NCBI GenBank assembly: GCA_913061095.1
Contig: CAJXVM010000001.1
Span: forward strand, 310,001-374,000
Source of the DNA: an uncultured Ignavibacteria bacterium
GTDB lineage: Bacteria > Bacteroidota > Ignavibacteria > SZUA-365
Length of the DNA: 64,000 bases
Direction of reading: 5' to 3'
In this document: piece by piece, positions 18,767 through 26,313 of the stretch
Layout: every line of letters starts with the position of its first letter
How positions within the stretch are numbered: the stretch's first letter is position 1
The notes under the pieces: model-generated
What the model was told of the DNA's origin: nothing
Seen by the model: only the letters and a program-made list of their open reading frames with translations
Database searches by the model: none
Translations under genes and position numbers: made by a program

Positions 18767-18853
18767 GACGCGCGGGCGTTCCGGGTGACGCATTGCTCCC
18801 GGAAGCGTGCTCCGCGCACAGGACAGTCATTTCTCCCTATTATACAGAGGTTC

Positions 18854-21076
18854 ATGCTGATGAAATTCAAAGGCACTCAGTTGATCTTCGCGGCCGCCGT
18901 CGCCGCGCTTCTCCTGACCGGATTCGGTGCCGTCCAGGCGCAGAAAAAACCCGTGACACTGCGGGACGTGTTCGGCAACCGCGATTTCTTCGCACCCCGC
19001 ATTTCAGGCTTTGCCTGGATGCCCGACGGTGAACATTACACCTACCTCAAGCGCGACGATGAATCGGGCGCGCGCAGCATCTGGAAAGTCGACGCGGAAA
19101 GCGGGGATGAAGAACTCCTTGTCAATGCCGCGACACTTCAGCTTCCCGGCAGCGATGAGGCACTGGCATTTCAGGATTATACCTGGGAGGAAAACGGGGA
19201 CTTCATCCTGTTCACGCTCTCGGAGCGCCGCATCTGGCGCCGTTCGCGCATCGGCACCTACGCGGTATATGACATGAACGCACAGAAAATCATCCCCCTC
19301 CCGGAACACGAGGGCGGAGTGATGAACGTGAAGGTATCGCCAGACGGCGCATGGGTCGGGTACGTCTTCAACGACAACATCTACATCATGAATTTGGAAA
19401 GCCGTGAGGAAATCCAGCTGACCGACGACGCGCAGGAGCATGTGTACAACGGACGCTTCGGCTGGGTATACGAAGAGGAATTCAGCATCGTGGACGGATG
19501 GCGCTGGTCGCCCGACAGCAGACGGATCGCCTTCTGGCAGGAAGACGAACGAAAGGTTCCCGAGTTCGTTCTCACGAACTGGATGCCGCTGTATCAGGAG
19601 CTGGTCCATATTCGCTATCCTAAACCCGGAGAGAAAAATCCGATCGAGAAAATCGCCGTCATCGATATTGACACGAAAGAACGCGTCTGGATGGATCTCG
19701 GCGACGAGACGGACATATACATCCCCCGTATCCGCTGGACGCGGGATCCGGAGCGACTCTGCATCTACCGCATGAACCGACTGCAGAATCAACTCGAACT
19801 GCTGTTCGCGGATGTCAGCACCGGCGAAACACGGGTGGTGCTCAATGAGCAGTCCGCAACCGGCTGGATCAGCGTGGATGACCAGTCCTGGCTGCATTTT
19901 CTCGAAGACAGCGACCGCTTCATCTGGCTGTCGGAACGCGACGGCTGGAATCACGCCTACCTGTTTGACTACGACGGCACGCAGATCCGCCAGATCACTT
20001 CGGGAGAGTGGGAAGTGCTCGAAGTCAAAGGCATAACGCCGGACGGTGAAACACTTTATTACACTTCGACAGAAGTCGCTCCGACACAGGAGCATCTTTA
20101 TCGCGTTGATGTCGAAAGCGGCGACCGTGAACGCCTGACGGAGGAAGACGGATGGCACAGCGTTGATGTCTCCCCCACCTGCGCGTTTTACCTCGACAGC
20201 TGGTCCAGTCTCAGCCGTCCCGCCCAGCGTCGGTTCTGTGATGCTGACGGCGATGAGCTGCGCGTCGTCGGCGAGGTGGACATGAGCGCGTTCGATGACT
20301 ACTACTGGAGCGAGAAGGAACTGTTCACCGTGACTACCGAGGACGGCTGGGAACTCGACTGCAGCATGATGAAGCCGGCCAACTTTGATCCCTCGAAGAA
20401 ATATCCGGTGTTTTTCAGTGTGTATGGCGGGCCGGGCACCTCGGCGGTTACCAGCAGCTGGCCTTCCACGATGAATCAGTGGTACGCGAGTGAAGGCTTC
20501 GTGGTCATCCAGGTCGACAACCGCGGCAGCAGCCGGCGGGGCACCGCCTTTAAGCACGCTGTCTACAAACAGCTCGGCAAGTGGGAAGTGCATGACTACG
20601 TGCAGGTCGCGAAGTATCTCTCAACCCTGCCCTGGGTGGATGCCGATCGCATCGGCATCTGGGGATGGAGTTACGGCGGGTATATGGCCGCCCTTTCCCT
20701 GCTGCTCGGTGACGGCACATTCAACACAGGGGTCGCCATCGCGCCGCTGCTCGACTGGCGCCTCTACGACACGATTTACGCCGAACGCTACATGCAGCGG
20801 CCCGAAGACAACCCCGACGGCTACGATGTCGGATCCTGCATCGTGCATGCAGACAAACTGCAGGGCAATCTGCTCCTTATTCACGGCGGCATGGACGACA
20901 ACGTCCATGTACAGAACACCATGCAGTTCATCCATCAGCTCGAAGAGGCAGGAAAGCAGTTCGACATGCGCATTTACCCGAACGGTGACCACGGTGTCGC
21001 CGGCGGCATGCGTTCACGTCTCGGCCTCTTCGAATACTACATGTCATACATGAAGGAGCACCTTCAGGACAGCTGA
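18854..21076 (+). CDS. Dipeptidyl peptidase IV-like S9 serine peptidase
   Basis: This exported S9B peptidase (740 residues) cleaves N-terminal dipeptides, usually after proline. A signal peptide (ending ...GAVQAQ) leads into an eight-bladed propeller bearing the double-glutamate motif GWVYEEEF that anchors the substrate N-terminus. The alpha/beta-hydrolase domain has the catalytic triad Ser606 (GWSYGG), Asp681 (GGMDDNVH) and His713 (NGDHGV). The spacing fits human DPP-IV (Ser630, Asp708, His740). The next gene starts 1 base after its stop, so the two are probably co-transcribed. ATG 18854 fits the GAGG ribosome site better than ATG 18860. Confidence 0.94.
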   Translation: MLMKFKGTQLIFAAAVAALLLTGFGAVQAQKKPVTLRDVFGNRDFFAPRISGFAWMPDGEHYTYLKRDDESGARSIWKVDAESGDEELLVNAATLQLPGSDEALAFQDYTWEENGDFILFTLSERRIWRRSRIGTYAVYDMNAQKIIPLPEHEGGVMNVKVSPDGAWVGYVFNDNIYIMNLESREEIQLTDDAQEHVYNGRFGWVYEEEFSIVDGWRWSPDSRRIAFWQEDERKVPEFVLTNWMPLYQELVHIRYPKPGEKNPIEKIAVIDIDTKERVWMDLGDETDIYIPRIRWTRDPERLCIYRMNRLQNQLELLFADVSTGETRVVLNEQSATGWISVDDQSWLHFLEDSDRFIWLSERDGWNHAYLFDYDGTQIRQITSGEWEVLEVKGITPDGETLYYTSTEVAPTQEHLYRVDVESGDRERLTEEDGWHSVDVSPTCAFYLDSWSSLSRPAQRRFCDADGDELRVVGEVDMSAFDDYYWSEKELFTVTTEDGWELDCSMMKPANFDPSKKYPVFFSVYGGPGTSAVTSSWPSTMNQWYASEGFVVIQVDNRGSSRRGTAFKHAVYKQLGKWEVHDYVQVAKYLSTLPWVDADRIGIWGWSYGGYMAALSLLLGDGTFNTGVAIAPLLDWRLYDTIYAERYMQRPEDNPDGYDVGSCIVHADKLQGNLLLIHGGMDDNVHVQNTMQFIHQLEEAGKQFDMRIYPNGDHGVAGGMRSRLGLFEYYMSYMKEHLQDS

Positions 21077-21077
21077 G

Positions 21078-21932
21078 TTGCAGTACGGAAAATCCCGCCC
21101 AGCCGCGTTCGCCCTCCTGCTCCTGCTGCTGCAGGAGTCCGCGGTTCTGTGCGCTCCCGTTGCGGATCCGCCGGAGCCCGCAGCGGAAGTCCGTACCTTC
21201 CCCATCTTTGGTCCCGAATATGAACGCGTGGAAATACGGGACCGCCGTCTCCGCGGGGCGGTGTACTACATCGTCGCCGGACACGGCGGTCCCGACAGCG
21301 GTGCGCGCGGCAAGCGTGAGGGACACACGCTCTGTGAGGATGAATACGCCTATGACGTCGCCCTGCGCCTCGCACGCAACCTCCTCAGCCACGACGCGAA
21401 AGTATATCTGATCACCCGTGACAGCAACGACGGCATCCGCGACGGCAAATACCTGTCCTGCGACCGTGACGAGCACGTCTGGGGCGGTGCGGCCATGCCG
21501 CGCGACCAGCTCGCGCGTCTCAGGCAGCGGGCGGACATCGTCAACCGGCTCGCACACAGAAACCGCTTTGCAAAGTACCAGCGACTGATCGTTCTGCATG
21601 TGGACAGTCGGCAGCGCGGGAACCGCGTCGATATCTTCTTCTATCACCACTCCGCAAGTGCCGCCGGACGCCGAACGGCCTCCATTCTGCAGCGGACCAT
21701 TGAGCAAAACTACCGGATTCATCAGCCGTGGCGGGGATATCACGGCACAGTCGAACCGCGCGACCGCCTGTACATGCTGCGCAGGACAACCCCCGGCACG
21801 GTCTATATTGAACTGGGCAACATCCGCAATCCGCTCGATCAGCGGAGATTCATCTCCGCCGACAACCGCCAGGCGCTCGGCAACTGGCTCGGTGAGGGAC
21901 TGCTCGAGGACTTTCAGCACTCACACCACTGA
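21078..21932 (+). CDS. N-acetylmuramoyl-L-alanine amidase (Amidase_3)
   Basis: This is an exported zinc amidase that cuts the amide bond between muramic acid and the stem peptide during cell-wall remodelling. After a signal peptide the 284-residue protein shows zinc ligands in IVAGHGGPDSGARG (His) and the following CEDEYAYDV (Glu), a third in VLHVDS (His), and the catalytic glutamate in VYIELGNIRN. The start codon is a TTG at 21078, with AGGAC about 7 bases upstream. No other start codon precedes the signal peptide. It overlaps functionally, not physically, with the peptidase gene just upstream. Confidence 0.85.
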   Translation: MQYGKSRPAAFALLLLLLQESAVLCAPVADPPEPAAEVRTFPIFGPEYERVEIRDRRLRGAVYYIVAGHGGPDSGARGKREGHTLCEDEYAYDVALRLARNLLSHDAKVYLITRDSNDGIRDGKYLSCDRDEHVWGGAAMPRDQLARLRQRADIVNRLAHRNRFAKYQRLIVLHVDSRQRGNRVDIFFYHHSASAAGRRTASILQRTIEQNYRIHQPWRGYHGTVEPRDRLYMLRRTTPGTVYIELGNIRNPLDQRRFISADNRQALGNWLGEGLLEDFQHSHH

Positions 21933-22042
21933 CATTTCCCTTCTATTTTATGTATGTTTCGCGTACGCGTCCGTGAAACAAACACACGCCTGATGTGTCT
22001 GTATCACTGTGCGGCATCATACGCACGGAGAACCGCACCAGA

Positions 22043-22633
22043 ATGCTCCTACGAAGCCAGCATACCGGCTCGGAGCGATTCGCCGACCGCAGCGACGTCG
22101 AATTGTTCCGTACGATCCGGGAATCTCCCGCACGGGCGGAAACCGCCTTCAGGGAGCTGTATTCCCGGCTCGCGGGCAATATCTATGCGTACTGCCGCTG
22201 TCTCGCCTGGCGCAGGGACGAAAGCGATGACCTGTTCCAGGAAACCTTCGCGCGGCTGTATGAAAGCGCGCTGCAGGGACGAGCGGTAACGAATGTATCC
22301 GGTTATGCGATCAAGATCGCGCGCAATCTCTACTTGAACATGCAGCGCGACAAAAAACCGACGGTCATCATCGAAGACGATACTCTGTCCATGCAGGACG
22401 TGCCGCATGAGCGCACGGAAATGCTGGAACTGATTCACATGGCCATGGAACTGCTCTCCGACGACTACCGGGAGGCGTTTTTCCTCCGGGAATTCGCGGA
22501 TCTCCCGTACAACGAGATCGCGGAGATCATGAACCTCACCAATGTCAACGTGCGCATCCGCGTGACGCGGGCGCGAGAGAAGATTCGCGGCATCCTTCAG
22601 CCCTATATCGCAGAATACGAACAGGAACAATAA
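22043..22633 (+). CDS. ECF-type RNA polymerase sigma factor
   Basis: This is a 196-residue sigma-70 family factor with region 2 (AFRELYSRLAGNIYAYCRCLAWRRDESDDLFQETFARLY, about residues 30-70) and region 4 (MELLSDDYREAFFLREFADLPYNEIAEIMNLTNVNVRIRVTRAREKIR, about 130-180). Both are given here only to locate the domains. The spacing and lack of region 3 identify an extracytoplasmic-function factor. The anti-sigma-like gene begins 11 bases downstream, so the pair forms a classical sigma/anti-sigma unit. An upstream GTG at 21995 is possible; ATG 22043 has GGAG within range. Confidence 0.9.
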   Translation: MLLRSQHTGSERFADRSDVELFRTIRESPARAETAFRELYSRLAGNIYAYCRCLAWRRDESDDLFQETFARLYESALQGRAVTNVSGYAIKIARNLYLNMQRDKKPTVIIEDDTLSMQDVPHERTEMLELIHMAMELLSDDYREAFFLREFADLPYNEIAEIMNLTNVNVRIRVTRAREKIRGILQPYIAEYEQEQ

Positions 22634-22644
22634 CGCATTTCGTC

Positions 22645-24117
22645 ATGAACACCTCAATGCCTCAGCCGAATGACATGCTGCACGCCTGGATTGACGGCGA
22701 ACTCGATCCGGCGCTCGAAACGCAGTTTTTCTCGTTGCTTGCCTCCGACAGCGATCTGCGCGAAAAACTTCGCCATATGCGGAACATCCGCATCGAAGCA
22801 CACAAATTCGGCGCCACTGTGCAGCCGCCCGCAGAGATCTCCGATCGCGTGTTCGCCCGCCTCGGATTCGCGGCTCCGGCCAGCACAGCCGCTGCGTCGC
22901 ACAGACCCGCCCTGCTCGCCACGTTTGAGCGCGCGTGGGCACCGGTGGCATCCGCTGCCGCTGCCGCGGTGATTACCGCCATTCTTATTCTCGGCCTCCG
23001 CAATCCGATGAATGAGGCGGCCACGCAGTCTCTTGCCGACAGTCGCACAGCGTCCCCGGCGGAACGAACCGAGACGCCGTCCAGCGACGGCCGTGCCACG
23101 AACGACGAACATGTGTTCACGGACAATACCGCGCGAATACCCTCCGCGGTTTCCGACAACGCGCGACTGAGCGAAGCGCAATCCGGTCCGGCCTCGCACA
23201 GAAACATGCGCACGGACGGCACCGTCCGCACCTCAGCGCCTGACGGAACGCGGGATGAAAATCCGCTGACGACGGAACGGAATGCAGAGACGGAGTCGCA
23301 GGATCGACCTATGCATACCGGCGCCATAGAGGAACAGAGTTTCTCCGATATCGCTGTTCAGGGTGACGATGCCGGAAACGCCTCCGCATCGAATGCCACG
23401 AGCACGCCCTCGCGCTCCGGCAGCGACAACCTCGCCGCATCCTACACGGATTCCGGTTCCGACGGTGAGCCCACCGGTGTGTCTTCGGCTCCTCCGTCAT
23501 GGCGAAATCCCACTGCGGAGACCACCGCTACGGCTCCCGCTGCGCACGCCATGCGTGAATCCCCCGCGTCCGCGGGATCGGCGCCTGTCGACACGCGGCA
23601 GTACTTCCCCGCCCTTCGACCTTCCGACATCCTTCCCGCGCTCTCGGTCGAGCTGCGCGGTATGAACACCGCCTCCTTCCCCTCGCCGACCATTTCCACA
23701 TCCTCGGATCCGTGGATGCAGAACATGGCCGTCGCGGTGTTTTATACGAGCGGACAACAGGATCTCGGGATCGAATTCGGTCAGGAGCCATTCGCCATGC
23801 ATTACCATGGTGTTGAAAACGGCAAGGCCGTGCGCTACGAACAGAACCTGCTCACGCCGTGGCTTCTGGCATCCTGGCGCCATCGCTTCCGTCCCATCTC
23901 CGTCGCCGGCATCGAACCGTATCTGACCGCCAGCCTCGGATCCTCGCTGTATTTCTGGCCCATGGCGCGGACCGGCGCGGGACTCATGTACATGCCCGAC
24001 CGCCGGGTGCGCTTCCACATCGGCGTGGAAGGAAGCATGCTCGCGTATCCGTACCAGCAGCAGTGGTTCACCTCGCGGCGCGTGGGACTGACCTACGGAC
24101 TTTCCGTCCTTTTCTGA
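22645..24117 (+). CDS. Anti-sigma-like protein fused to an outer-membrane-barrel-like C-terminus
   Basis: This unusual 490-residue protein has three parts. Residues 1-95 are soluble and helical (NDMLHAWIDGELDPALE...), the pattern seen at the start of many anti-sigma factors, but lacking the zinc HxxxCxxC. Residues 99-118 form one membrane helix. Residues 119-331 are a Ser/Thr/Ala/Pro-rich low-complexity linker. Residues 332-490 look like amphipathic beta-strands (AVAVFYTSG, LGIEFGQEP, GIEPYLTASLGSSLYFW, RFHIGVEGSMLAYPY) and end in ...GLSVLF, with the terminal phenylalanine typical of BAM substrates. It sits 11 bases after the ECF sigma gene. Such a protein could span the envelope; that is inference. 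Confidence 0.7.
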   Translation: MNTSMPQPNDMLHAWIDGELDPALETQFFSLLASDSDLREKLRHMRNIRIEAHKFGATVQPPAEISDRVFARLGFAAPASTAAASHRPALLATFERAWAPVASAAAAAVITAILILGLRNPMNEAATQSLADSRTASPAERTETPSSDGRATNDEHVFTDNTARIPSAVSDNARLSEAQSGPASHRNMRTDGTVRTSAPDGTRDENPLTTERNAETESQDRPMHTGAIEEQSFSDIAVQGDDAGNASASNATSTPSRSGSDNLAASYTDSGSDGEPTGVSSAPPSWRNPTAETTATAPAAHAMRESPASAGSAPVDTRQYFPALRPSDILPALSVELRGMNTASFPSPTISTSSDPWMQNMAVAVFYTSGQQDLGIEFGQEPFAMHYHGVENGKAVRYEQNLLTPWLLASWRHRFRPISVAGIEPYLTASLGSSLYFWPMARTGAGLMYMPDRRVRFHIGVEGSMLAYPYQQQWFTSRRVGLTYGLSVLF

Positions 24118-24207: not shown

Positions 24208-25461
24208 ATGACGAGGCAGCACACAATCACCGCAATTCTGACAGCGATCGGCACGATATTGCTGCTCACCGCGTGCGCTTCCCCCACGGATCCCGACACG
24301 CCGCGGAAACGCATCACCGAACCGTCCCGGTATTTCCTGCGTAGCGTGGATTTCAACGGAAGCGAGTACGATGCGGGATATGACGTGGTGCAGCTCGAGG
24401 ACGGCGATTTCATCATTACCGGCCGCACGTATATGCGGCACACCGGATCGAAAGACATCCTCCTGATGCGCACCGACTCCGAAGGCAATCAGCGCTGGGT
24501 GAAGACCTACGGTGGTGTCTTTGAAGACGAAGGCTATTCCGTCGCGCCGACGCAGGACGGCGGTTTCATCATTACCGGATACACCGAGTCCTACTCCGAC
24601 GAAGGGTTCTATGACATCTATCTCATCAAAACGGATGCACAGGGAAACCAGCAGTGGAGCAAATCCTTCGGTGGCGAAGGATACGACTACGGTCAGCAGG
24701 TGATCGAATGCGCAAACGGTGACTTCGTCGTGGTGGGCTACTCCCAGTATTCCCTCGGCGGCAACTGGTTCGCCAGCGTCCACCGCACGGAACCTTCCGG
24801 AAACCTGATCTGGAGCAAGGAATTCATGAACCGCAGCGAGCGGAACTTCGGTACATCGATCCGCGAACTCGACGACGGCGGCTTCGTCGTGACCGGTTCC
24901 ATTGACGTCGCCACGGAAGGAAGAAGCGCTCTCTGGATGTTCAAGCTTCCCGCTAACGGAGCGGACGTGGAATGGGAGCATGTTATCAACGGTGGAAGCG
25001 GAAGCAGCGGAAAACTCATCGTCCTTCGCCCGGGCGGCGGATACGCGGTCGCCGGCGAAAGCGATTATTCCGGAGAAATCATCAGCAGCGGAACCGCCAG
25101 AAGTTCACGCATCCTCTTTGTGGTCACCGATGCCGCGGGTGACAAAATCTCCGAGACCATTCTGCAGGACAACGCCAGCGTTACCGGAATGAAGGTGACA
25201 CCCGATGGAGGATATATCCTTTCAGGGTACACCGATCCCTTCAACGCAGACGGATCGGACATGCTGCTGCTCCGCCTGGATCAGGAGGGCCGGCTGCTCT
25301 GGAAGAAAATCATCGGCGGCCTCCGGATGGATCGTGCCCTTTCTGTGGACAACACGCTGGACGGCGGCTTCATCATTACGGGCAAGTCGGAGTCATACGG
25401 ACATGGCAACGAGGATCTTATCCTTTTGAAAACGGACGCCAGCGGCAATTTCGAGGAATGA
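24208..25461 (+). CDS. Lipoprotein with propeller-type repeats
   Basis: This is a predicted lipoprotein of 417 residues with signal peptide and lipobox LLTAC. The body is built of about seven repeats of roughly 50 residues with the pattern DxGYDVVQLEDGDFIITGRT ... DILLMRTDSEGNQRWVKTYGG. They are recognisable by the recurrent DGGFIITG, KTDAxGN and W-K/S-K-x-G-G elements. Such repeats are common in secreted Bacteroidota proteins and fold as beta-propellers. No catalytic motif is evident. It follows the sigma/anti-sigma pair by 90 bases and might belong to the same regulon. ATG 24208 has CGGAG upstream. Confidence 0.72.
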   Translation: MTRQHTITAILTAIGTILLLTACASPTDPDTPRKRITEPSRYFLRSVDFNGSEYDAGYDVVQLEDGDFIITGRTYMRHTGSKDILLMRTDSEGNQRWVKTYGGVFEDEGYSVAPTQDGGFIITGYTESYSDEGFYDIYLIKTDAQGNQQWSKSFGGEGYDYGQQVIECANGDFVVVGYSQYSLGGNWFASVHRTEPSGNLIWSKEFMNRSERNFGTSIRELDDGGFVVTGSIDVATEGRSALWMFKLPANGADVEWEHVINGGSGSSGKLIVLRPGGGYAVAGESDYSGEIISSGTARSSRILFVVTDAAGDKISETILQDNASVTGMKVTPDGGYILSGYTDPFNADGSDMLLLRLDQEGRLLWKKIIGGLRMDRALSVDNTLDGGFIITGKSESYGHGNEDLILLKTDASGNFEE

Positions 25462-25524: not shown

Positions 25525-26313
25525 ATGAATGCGCAGAACACGGACGTTGCAGATCTTTCGGTGATCGTGATCGCCGGCTTCGAAGAACACAACATCGGAG
25601 CCTGCCTCGATACCGTGCATTGGGCAAAGGAAATCATCGTTGTCTGTTCGCAGCAGCAGGATGAAACGATGACCGTCGCCCGCCGGTATACGCCGCATGT
25701 GACGTATCGCACCTTCGACGGCTACGCCGCACAGAAACAATTCGCACTGGAACAGGCCTCGTGTCCCTGGGTGCTCAGCCTTGACGCCGACGAGCGCGTC
25801 ACCCCGGAGCTGCGCGAGGAAATCTCCGCGGTGCTGGCAGCAGACGGACCGGCGGATGGCTACAGCATGCCGCGGCGGAATCATTTCCGTGGGAAATGGC
25901 TGCGCCACGGCGGCTGGTATCCTGATCGCCAGATGCGCCTGTTCCGCAGGTCGCGCACGCGCCTGACCGACCGCCTTGTCCATGAGGGATTCGAGGTAGA
26001 GGGACGTCGCGGCGAATTCGAGGCAGCACTGCTGCATTATACGCTGCCGAACGTGCGGCATATGCTCGAGAAAAACGTGTGGTACGCACAGTACGAAGCA
26101 CAGGAAAAACGCCATCGCCGTCGCGTCACCGTGCTGGATTTCCTGCTGCGTCCCCCGCTGGAATTTCTGAAAAAATACCTTCTGCAGCGCGGTTTTCTCG
26201 ATGGCTGGGAGGGATTCATCGTCGCGGTGATCCACGCATCGAACAAACTTCACGTGCAGCTGCATCTCTGGGACATTCAGCGCCACGGCGAACCGGGAGA
26301 CACGGCATCGTGA
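25525..26313 (+). CDS. Glycosyltransferase family 2 (WaaE/KdtX-like)
   Basis: This is a 262-residue GT-A glycosyltransferase. The N-terminus LSVIVIAGFEEHNIGACLDTV replaces the usual VxxxxNE motif with GFEE. DAVxWAKEIIVV-like spacing, SLDADERVTPEL (the DXD region) and PRRNHFRGKWLRHGGWYPDRQMRLFRR follow. This last block is diagnostic of the WaaE/KdtX type lipopolysaccharide core transferases. The C-terminus has basic and hydrophobic residues suited to membrane association. Its stop overlaps the GTG start of a family 9 heptosyltransferase-like gene, supporting a role in lipopolysaccharide core assembly. Confidence 0.87.
   Translation: MNAQNTDVADLSVIVIAGFEEHNIGACLDTVHWAKEIIVVCSQQQDETMTVARRYTPHVTYRTFDGYAAQKQFALEQASCPWVLSLDADERVTPELREEISAVLAADGPADGYSMPRRNHFRGKWLRHGGWYPDRQMRLFRRSRTRLTDRLVHEGFEVEGRRGEFEAALLHYTLPNVRHMLEKNVWYAQYEAQEKRHRRRVTVLDFLLRPPLEFLKKYLLQRGFLDGWEGFIVAVIHASNKLHVQLHLWDIQRHGEPGDTAS

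Follow-up and report, generated by a model that had tools for sequence, protein, structure and literature searches.

The window, a 64,000-nucleotide stretch of DNA from an uncultured member of the Ignavibacteria, carries on its forward strand a gene for an ECF sigma factor, a gene for a 490-residue protein, and a gene for a lipoprotein. (NCBI places the Ignavibacteria in a phylum of their own, Ignavibacteriota; the organism belongs to the Bacteroidota in the broad sense.) The features of this three-gene cassette are as follows, in window coordinates.

21974-21999, forward: conserved ECF-type promoter, TGAAACAA-N11-AYGTGTC (-35 and -10 elements)
22043-22633, forward: ECF sigma factor, 196 amino acids (Pfam r2/r4_2), in a clade that goes with the class-I type of anti-sigma factor
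22645-24117, forward: whole gene of the putative trans-envelope anti-sigma protein, 490 amino acids (open reading frame, homologues, AlphaFold2)
22645-22869, forward: class-I anti-sigma domain, spanning residues 1-75, with a DGEL motif and four predicted helices and without zinc ligands
22930-23010, forward: inner-membrane helix, residues ~96-122 (hydropathy; helix 90-118 in the model)
23011-23640, forward: disordered linker, residues 123-332 (pLDDT mostly below 50, variable length, 13% identity)
23641-24117, forward: predicted outer-membrane beta-barrel of 8 strands, residues 333-490 (AlphaFold2, Foldseek)
24208-25461, forward: partner lipoprotein, 417 amino acids from the ATG at 24208 (lipobox LLLTA-C; delta-60/SBBP-like repeats by NCBIfam), adjoining the pair across the family
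24274-24306, forward: tag CASPTDPDTPR at the N-terminus of the mature lipoprotein

The cassette is preceded by genes for a DPP-IV-type peptidase and an N-acetylmuramoyl-L-alanine amidase (18785-21932) and followed by a glycosyltransferase-like gene (25525-26313). This block is kept in the family, with the amidase, the lipoprotein, and the glycosyltransferase-like gene in synteny. The organism's genome contains four clear cassettes and perhaps a fifth, diverged one, so several trans-envelope channels may run in parallel. The possible fifth (C2; 683-2949 of L181) has a sigma factor gene and a gene for a 485-residue protein with the anti-sigma domain; this protein ends in FGILLW, and the barrel profile does not find its C-terminus.

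The sigma factor gene and its promoter

The sigma factor matches Pfam's Sigma70_r2 (E = 2e-8) and r4_2 (E = 2.5e-14). Its length of 196 residues is counted from the ATG at 22043, and the reading frame is already open at a GTG at 21995. The ATG is the likelier start because of the conserved promoter at 21974-21999, from which transcription would start no earlier than the GTG.

The promoter motif lies upstream of the sigma factor gene in all 8 of the testable orthologues, with 0-2 mismatches and constant internal spacing. Across both strands of 562 kb of locus DNA, there was just one further match, which is in another cassette locus (L067), and the window's promoter is the sole exact match within its own genome. 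A conserved ECF-type promoter at this position implies that the sigma factor operon is autoregulated. When we searched for a wider regulon with the motif, we found 11 sites, versus 4 in a reversed control, and no convincing additional targets. Downstream of a paralogous cassette in the same genome (C14), a gene for a secreted repeat-like protein (450-1433 of L174) starts 79 bases past the start of a copy of the motif with 2 mismatches.

The anti-sigma protein, its linker, and its predicted barrel

The anti-sigma gene begins 11 bases past the stop codon of the sigma factor gene. Its product has no Pfam match above threshold. Nevertheless, the 490-codon reading frame is more than a chance opening: the protein is present in 27 of the 61 nearest genomes, often in several copies; every locus with usable upstream DNA (28 of 28) has an ECF sigma factor gene before it in the same orientation; and identity to homologues is 13% in the linker versus 40% in the anti-sigma domain and 43% in the barrel. 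The first-pass annotation was right to pair these two genes: both reading frames are real, and the pair is conserved.

The N-terminus had been described as anti-sigma-like. In the AlphaFold2 model, which was built with 22 homologues, residues 8-72 form four helices. We compared a profile of 46 N-termini to all PDB chains (using hmmsearch), and the top five matches were all anti-sigma factors: RseA (E = 0.003), RsiW (0.007), DdvA (0.017), MucA (0.45), and a second RseA-type chain (0.46). A PDB search with a single N-domain sequence, instead of the 46-sequence profile, found no matches. Foldseek with the N-terminal model returned MucA and RsiW chains as its best five matches, with weak E-values (0.7-0.95), and hhalign gave 98.9% for a match to the phylum's class-I anti-sigma domains from proteins without a barrel. 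By profile, and weakly by predicted fold, the N-terminal region thus belongs to the class-I anti-sigma domains. It does not contain the zinc-binding motif HxxxCxxC, and its matches to zf-HC2 (E = 0.01-0.11) are below the cut-off. Many class-I anti-sigma domains contain this motif, but not all of them do: RseA and MucA also lack it, so its absence does not exclude membership.

Beyond this domain, the protein has one hydrophobic helix, as the first-pass annotation had stated; hydropathy and the structural model both identify it. The helix is followed by a linker of about 205-210 residues, which had been called low complexity. Over 205 residues, 89% of the linker is polar or small, and AlphaFold2 predicts disorder from about residue 119 to 330. 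Among 46 proteins of the family, linker length varies from 95 to 250 residues and is never below 95. When extended, even the shortest linker would reach at least ~33 nm, which exceeds the usual width of the periplasm. The linker therefore fits a tether, in agreement with the proposal that it could cross the periplasm.

At the C-terminus, the annotation had noted a strand-rich, barrel-like region ending in phenylalanine; it had named a soluble beta-sandwich as the prediction that would count against its proposal. AlphaFold2 instead predicts an eight-stranded meander barrel at residues 333-489 with pLDDT of about 90-97. The last strand ends in L-T-Y-G-L-S-V-L-F. Foldseek's best match to the barrel is the 8-stranded NspA (E = 3e-5, TM score of 0.67 on the target), and every one of the top PDB structures is an outer-membrane barrel (NspA, OmpT, OmpA, Ail, OprF, and OmpW). 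In addition, some of the homologues match Pfam's OMP_b-brl. The C-terminal domain is thus predicted to be an 8-stranded barrel that resembles solved outer-membrane barrels.

We considered whether the C-terminal domain might stay in the periplasm, or whether the protein might be cut in two to give an ordinary membrane-bound anti-sigma factor and a separate small barrel. Disordered linkers are prone to proteolysis, which would favor cutting. However, neither version accounts well for the barrel fold, for a tether that never falls below 95 residues, or for a fusion that is retained across many families of the window's class. We consider this explanation very unlikely.

The partner lipoprotein and its tag

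The first-pass annotation described the anatomy of the pair correctly but overlooked both the conserved promoter and the third gene. A strict signal rule assigns 27 of the 49 genes that follow the pair to lipoproteins, as compared to 4 of 162 background genes. Of 47 genes in this position, 44 have an [AGS]C site. After the lipidated cysteine, 34 of 47 cassettes share a tag, C-x-S-P-[LT]-D-x-D-T-P-R. In the six-frame translation of 1.48 Mb of fetched DNA, in which some loci overlap, the strict form of the tag has 33 matches. All 33 are directly after a lipoprotein signal and downstream of a barrel-type anti-sigma gene. None of 40 other putative lipoproteins, from 864 kb of the window's genome, has the tag.

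The tagged lipoproteins have different bodies: SBBP-like repeats (in the window), VWA domains, Ig-like ASH/HYDIN domains, or a small unassigned domain. Across 479 pairs with unrelated bodies, the similarity of the tags was 0.49, versus 0.08 if shuffled. The tag tracks the barrel (r = 0.67) more than it tracks the body (r = 0.51), although these correlations are uncorrected for shared ancestry. The simplest reading is that the tag would serve to dock the lipoprotein, either on the barrel or on the tether. Docking through the tag cannot be universal, because 13 of the 47 cassettes do not have it, and in the window's own genome the full tag is missing from C7 and C5, half of the four clear cassettes. 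In C7 (1504-2721 of L175), the lipoprotein beside the paralogous trans-envelope anti-sigma gene does not carry the common tag and belongs to the serpins (Pfam, 8e-114).

Alternatively, the tag might be an export signal that flips lipoproteins to the cell surface without any direct contact with the anti-sigma protein. The known export signals of Bacteroidota lipoproteins are K-(D/E)2 at position +3, SDDDD, or SDDFE (PMC5080379). Like these, the tag is acidic and is near the +1 cysteine, but its acidic residues are spaced at +6 and +8, with a fixed proline and arginine. Directly past the +1 cysteine, the tag does not match any of the three, and so, as judged from its sequence, it is no known surface-export signal. 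Also, the 40 other putative lipoproteins from 864 kb of this genome all lack it. Overall, the export explanation seems improbable.

Another alternative is that the barrel itself is the sensor. The barrel would be a substrate of barrel assembly, a stalled or unfolded barrel would lead to proteolysis, and the lipoprotein would merely be an output of the operon. The architecture would suffice for this; the last strand of the barrel has the residues expected of a beta-signal (F at -1 and Y at -7); the genome encodes a homologue of RseP; and the lipoprotein gene sits behind an autoregulated pair. However, this would leave a cassette-specific tag on unrelated lipoprotein bodies unexplained, and we think it is unlikely.

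A candidate trans-envelope cassette and its relation to known systems

We favor docking, and we give a probability of roughly two in three to the reading that these genes form an autoregulated trans-envelope signalling cassette, comprising the sigma factor, a barrel-tipped anti-sigma protein, and a lipoprotein that docks by its tag. From the computed gene order, type of anti-sigma domain, membrane helix, barrel fold, conserved promoter, and tag, we infer how it might operate. The class-I domain would hold the sigma factor at the inner membrane. The same polypeptide would cross the inner membrane once, span the periplasm by its disordered tether, and end in an 8-stranded barrel inserted in the outer membrane. 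There, the outer-membrane lipoprotein would dock through its tag on the barrel or on the adjacent part of the tether, and its variable body would be the sensor or effector. The trigger at the outer membrane could be that the lipoprotein binds a ligand or is lost, or that the barrel fails to assemble, and any of these might change the tether. The anti-sigma protein would then be inactivated, probably by proteolysis (the RseP homologue would be a site-2 protease of the relevant type), and the freed sigma factor would raise expression of its own operon.

The first-pass annotation viewed it as unusual for a single polypeptide to connect a sigma factor in the cytoplasm with the outer membrane. It had the anatomy right, but the kind is not new: the single-chain trans-envelope anti-sigma architecture is already described as Dma (PMC13088901, building on a 2024 PNAS paper). 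What is new here is the conserved promoter, the tagged lipoprotein partner, and, probably, a second lineage. Dma likewise has an N-terminal anti-sigma domain, one membrane helix, a long disordered tether, a C-terminal barrel, and an adjacent ECF sigma factor gene, and dma2 is in a three-gene operon, as is the case here (PMC13088901).

Across 395 genomes of the phylum, we found this anti-sigma domain as part of the complete architecture only in the window's class. Outside of the class, nearly all matches were to the N-terminal part and lay in short proteins without barrels. In one family of the class (L023-L026), related sigma factors are paired with barrel-less anti-sigma proteins of ~208-235 amino acids, which possibly predate the fusion or arose by its loss. 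A weak match to a protein at L122 led us to Dma-like proteins of other Bacteroidota. We used 17 of these, from Bacteroidia, as a proxy for Dma; they are equated with the Dma of B. thetaiotaomicron by architecture. They have ECF sigma factor genes upstream, and their N-domains, which are shorter than the window family's and unrelated to it, contain the motif W..M..LLDKEMP. Their barrels differ as well. A search by way of the nearest NCBIfam sigma factor (sigma_PG0214) turned up partner genes that are small and do not resemble Dma.

Is the window's family a direct descendant of Dma from Bacteroidia that has diverged past recognition? Both occur in the same phylum in the wide sense, with the same domain order and an adjacent ECF sigma factor. 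However, hhalign of the two sets gave 0.9% for the N-domains and at most 7.5% for the barrels, while both positive controls worked. In the sigma factor tree, the window's family forms one clade (support of 96/98, counting L027, where a contig end cuts the gene) beside barrel-less class-I systems, and the Dma-like proteins' sigma factors form a separate clade (100/100), although the deep branches are weakly supported. Direct descent is therefore doubtful. Because the sigma factors and the anti-sigma domains are of a different lineage from those of the Dma-like set, the trans-envelope architecture probably arose twice, with the Dma side judged by its Bacteroidia proxies; given the weak deep branches, two origins are likely and not proven. 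We did not find the conserved lipoprotein tag with the Dma-like proteins. More tentatively, and at somewhat less than even odds, the window's family may be an independently evolved second lineage of modular three-part sensors, in which a constant tag lets unrelated sensor bodies (beta-propeller-like repeats, VWA, Ig-like, or small beta domains) plug into their own cassette's barrel.

These results suggest that gut Bacteroides are not alone in joining the outer membrane to a sigma factor through one polypeptide; the arrangement likely arose twice, and multi-copy families throughout a class are built on it. The tagged lipoproteins are concrete, testable candidates for what trans-envelope anti-sigma proteins sense, and a cassette in which the tag stays constant while the sensor domains can be exchanged should help in dissecting how signals cross two membranes.

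Among other known systems, RseA, MucA, and RsiW share the cytoplasmic anti-sigma fold and the single membrane helix, but they end in the periplasm or outside, whereas the window's protein continues with a tether and a predicted outer-membrane barrel. In the FecA/FecR/FecI system, as proposed for the cassette, an event at the outer membrane reaches an ECF sigma factor across two membranes. The first-pass annotation set the two apart, and we concur: the cassette has no TonB-dependent receptor, its barrel is 8-stranded and is covalently part of the anti-sigma protein, and we found neither a FecR match in Pfam nor a receptor gene among the immediate neighbors. Finally, by analogy alone and with other signalling machinery, the cassette resembles the Rcs system of E. 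coli, in which RcsF threads through outer-membrane barrels and a lipoprotein and a barrel together act as an envelope sensor.
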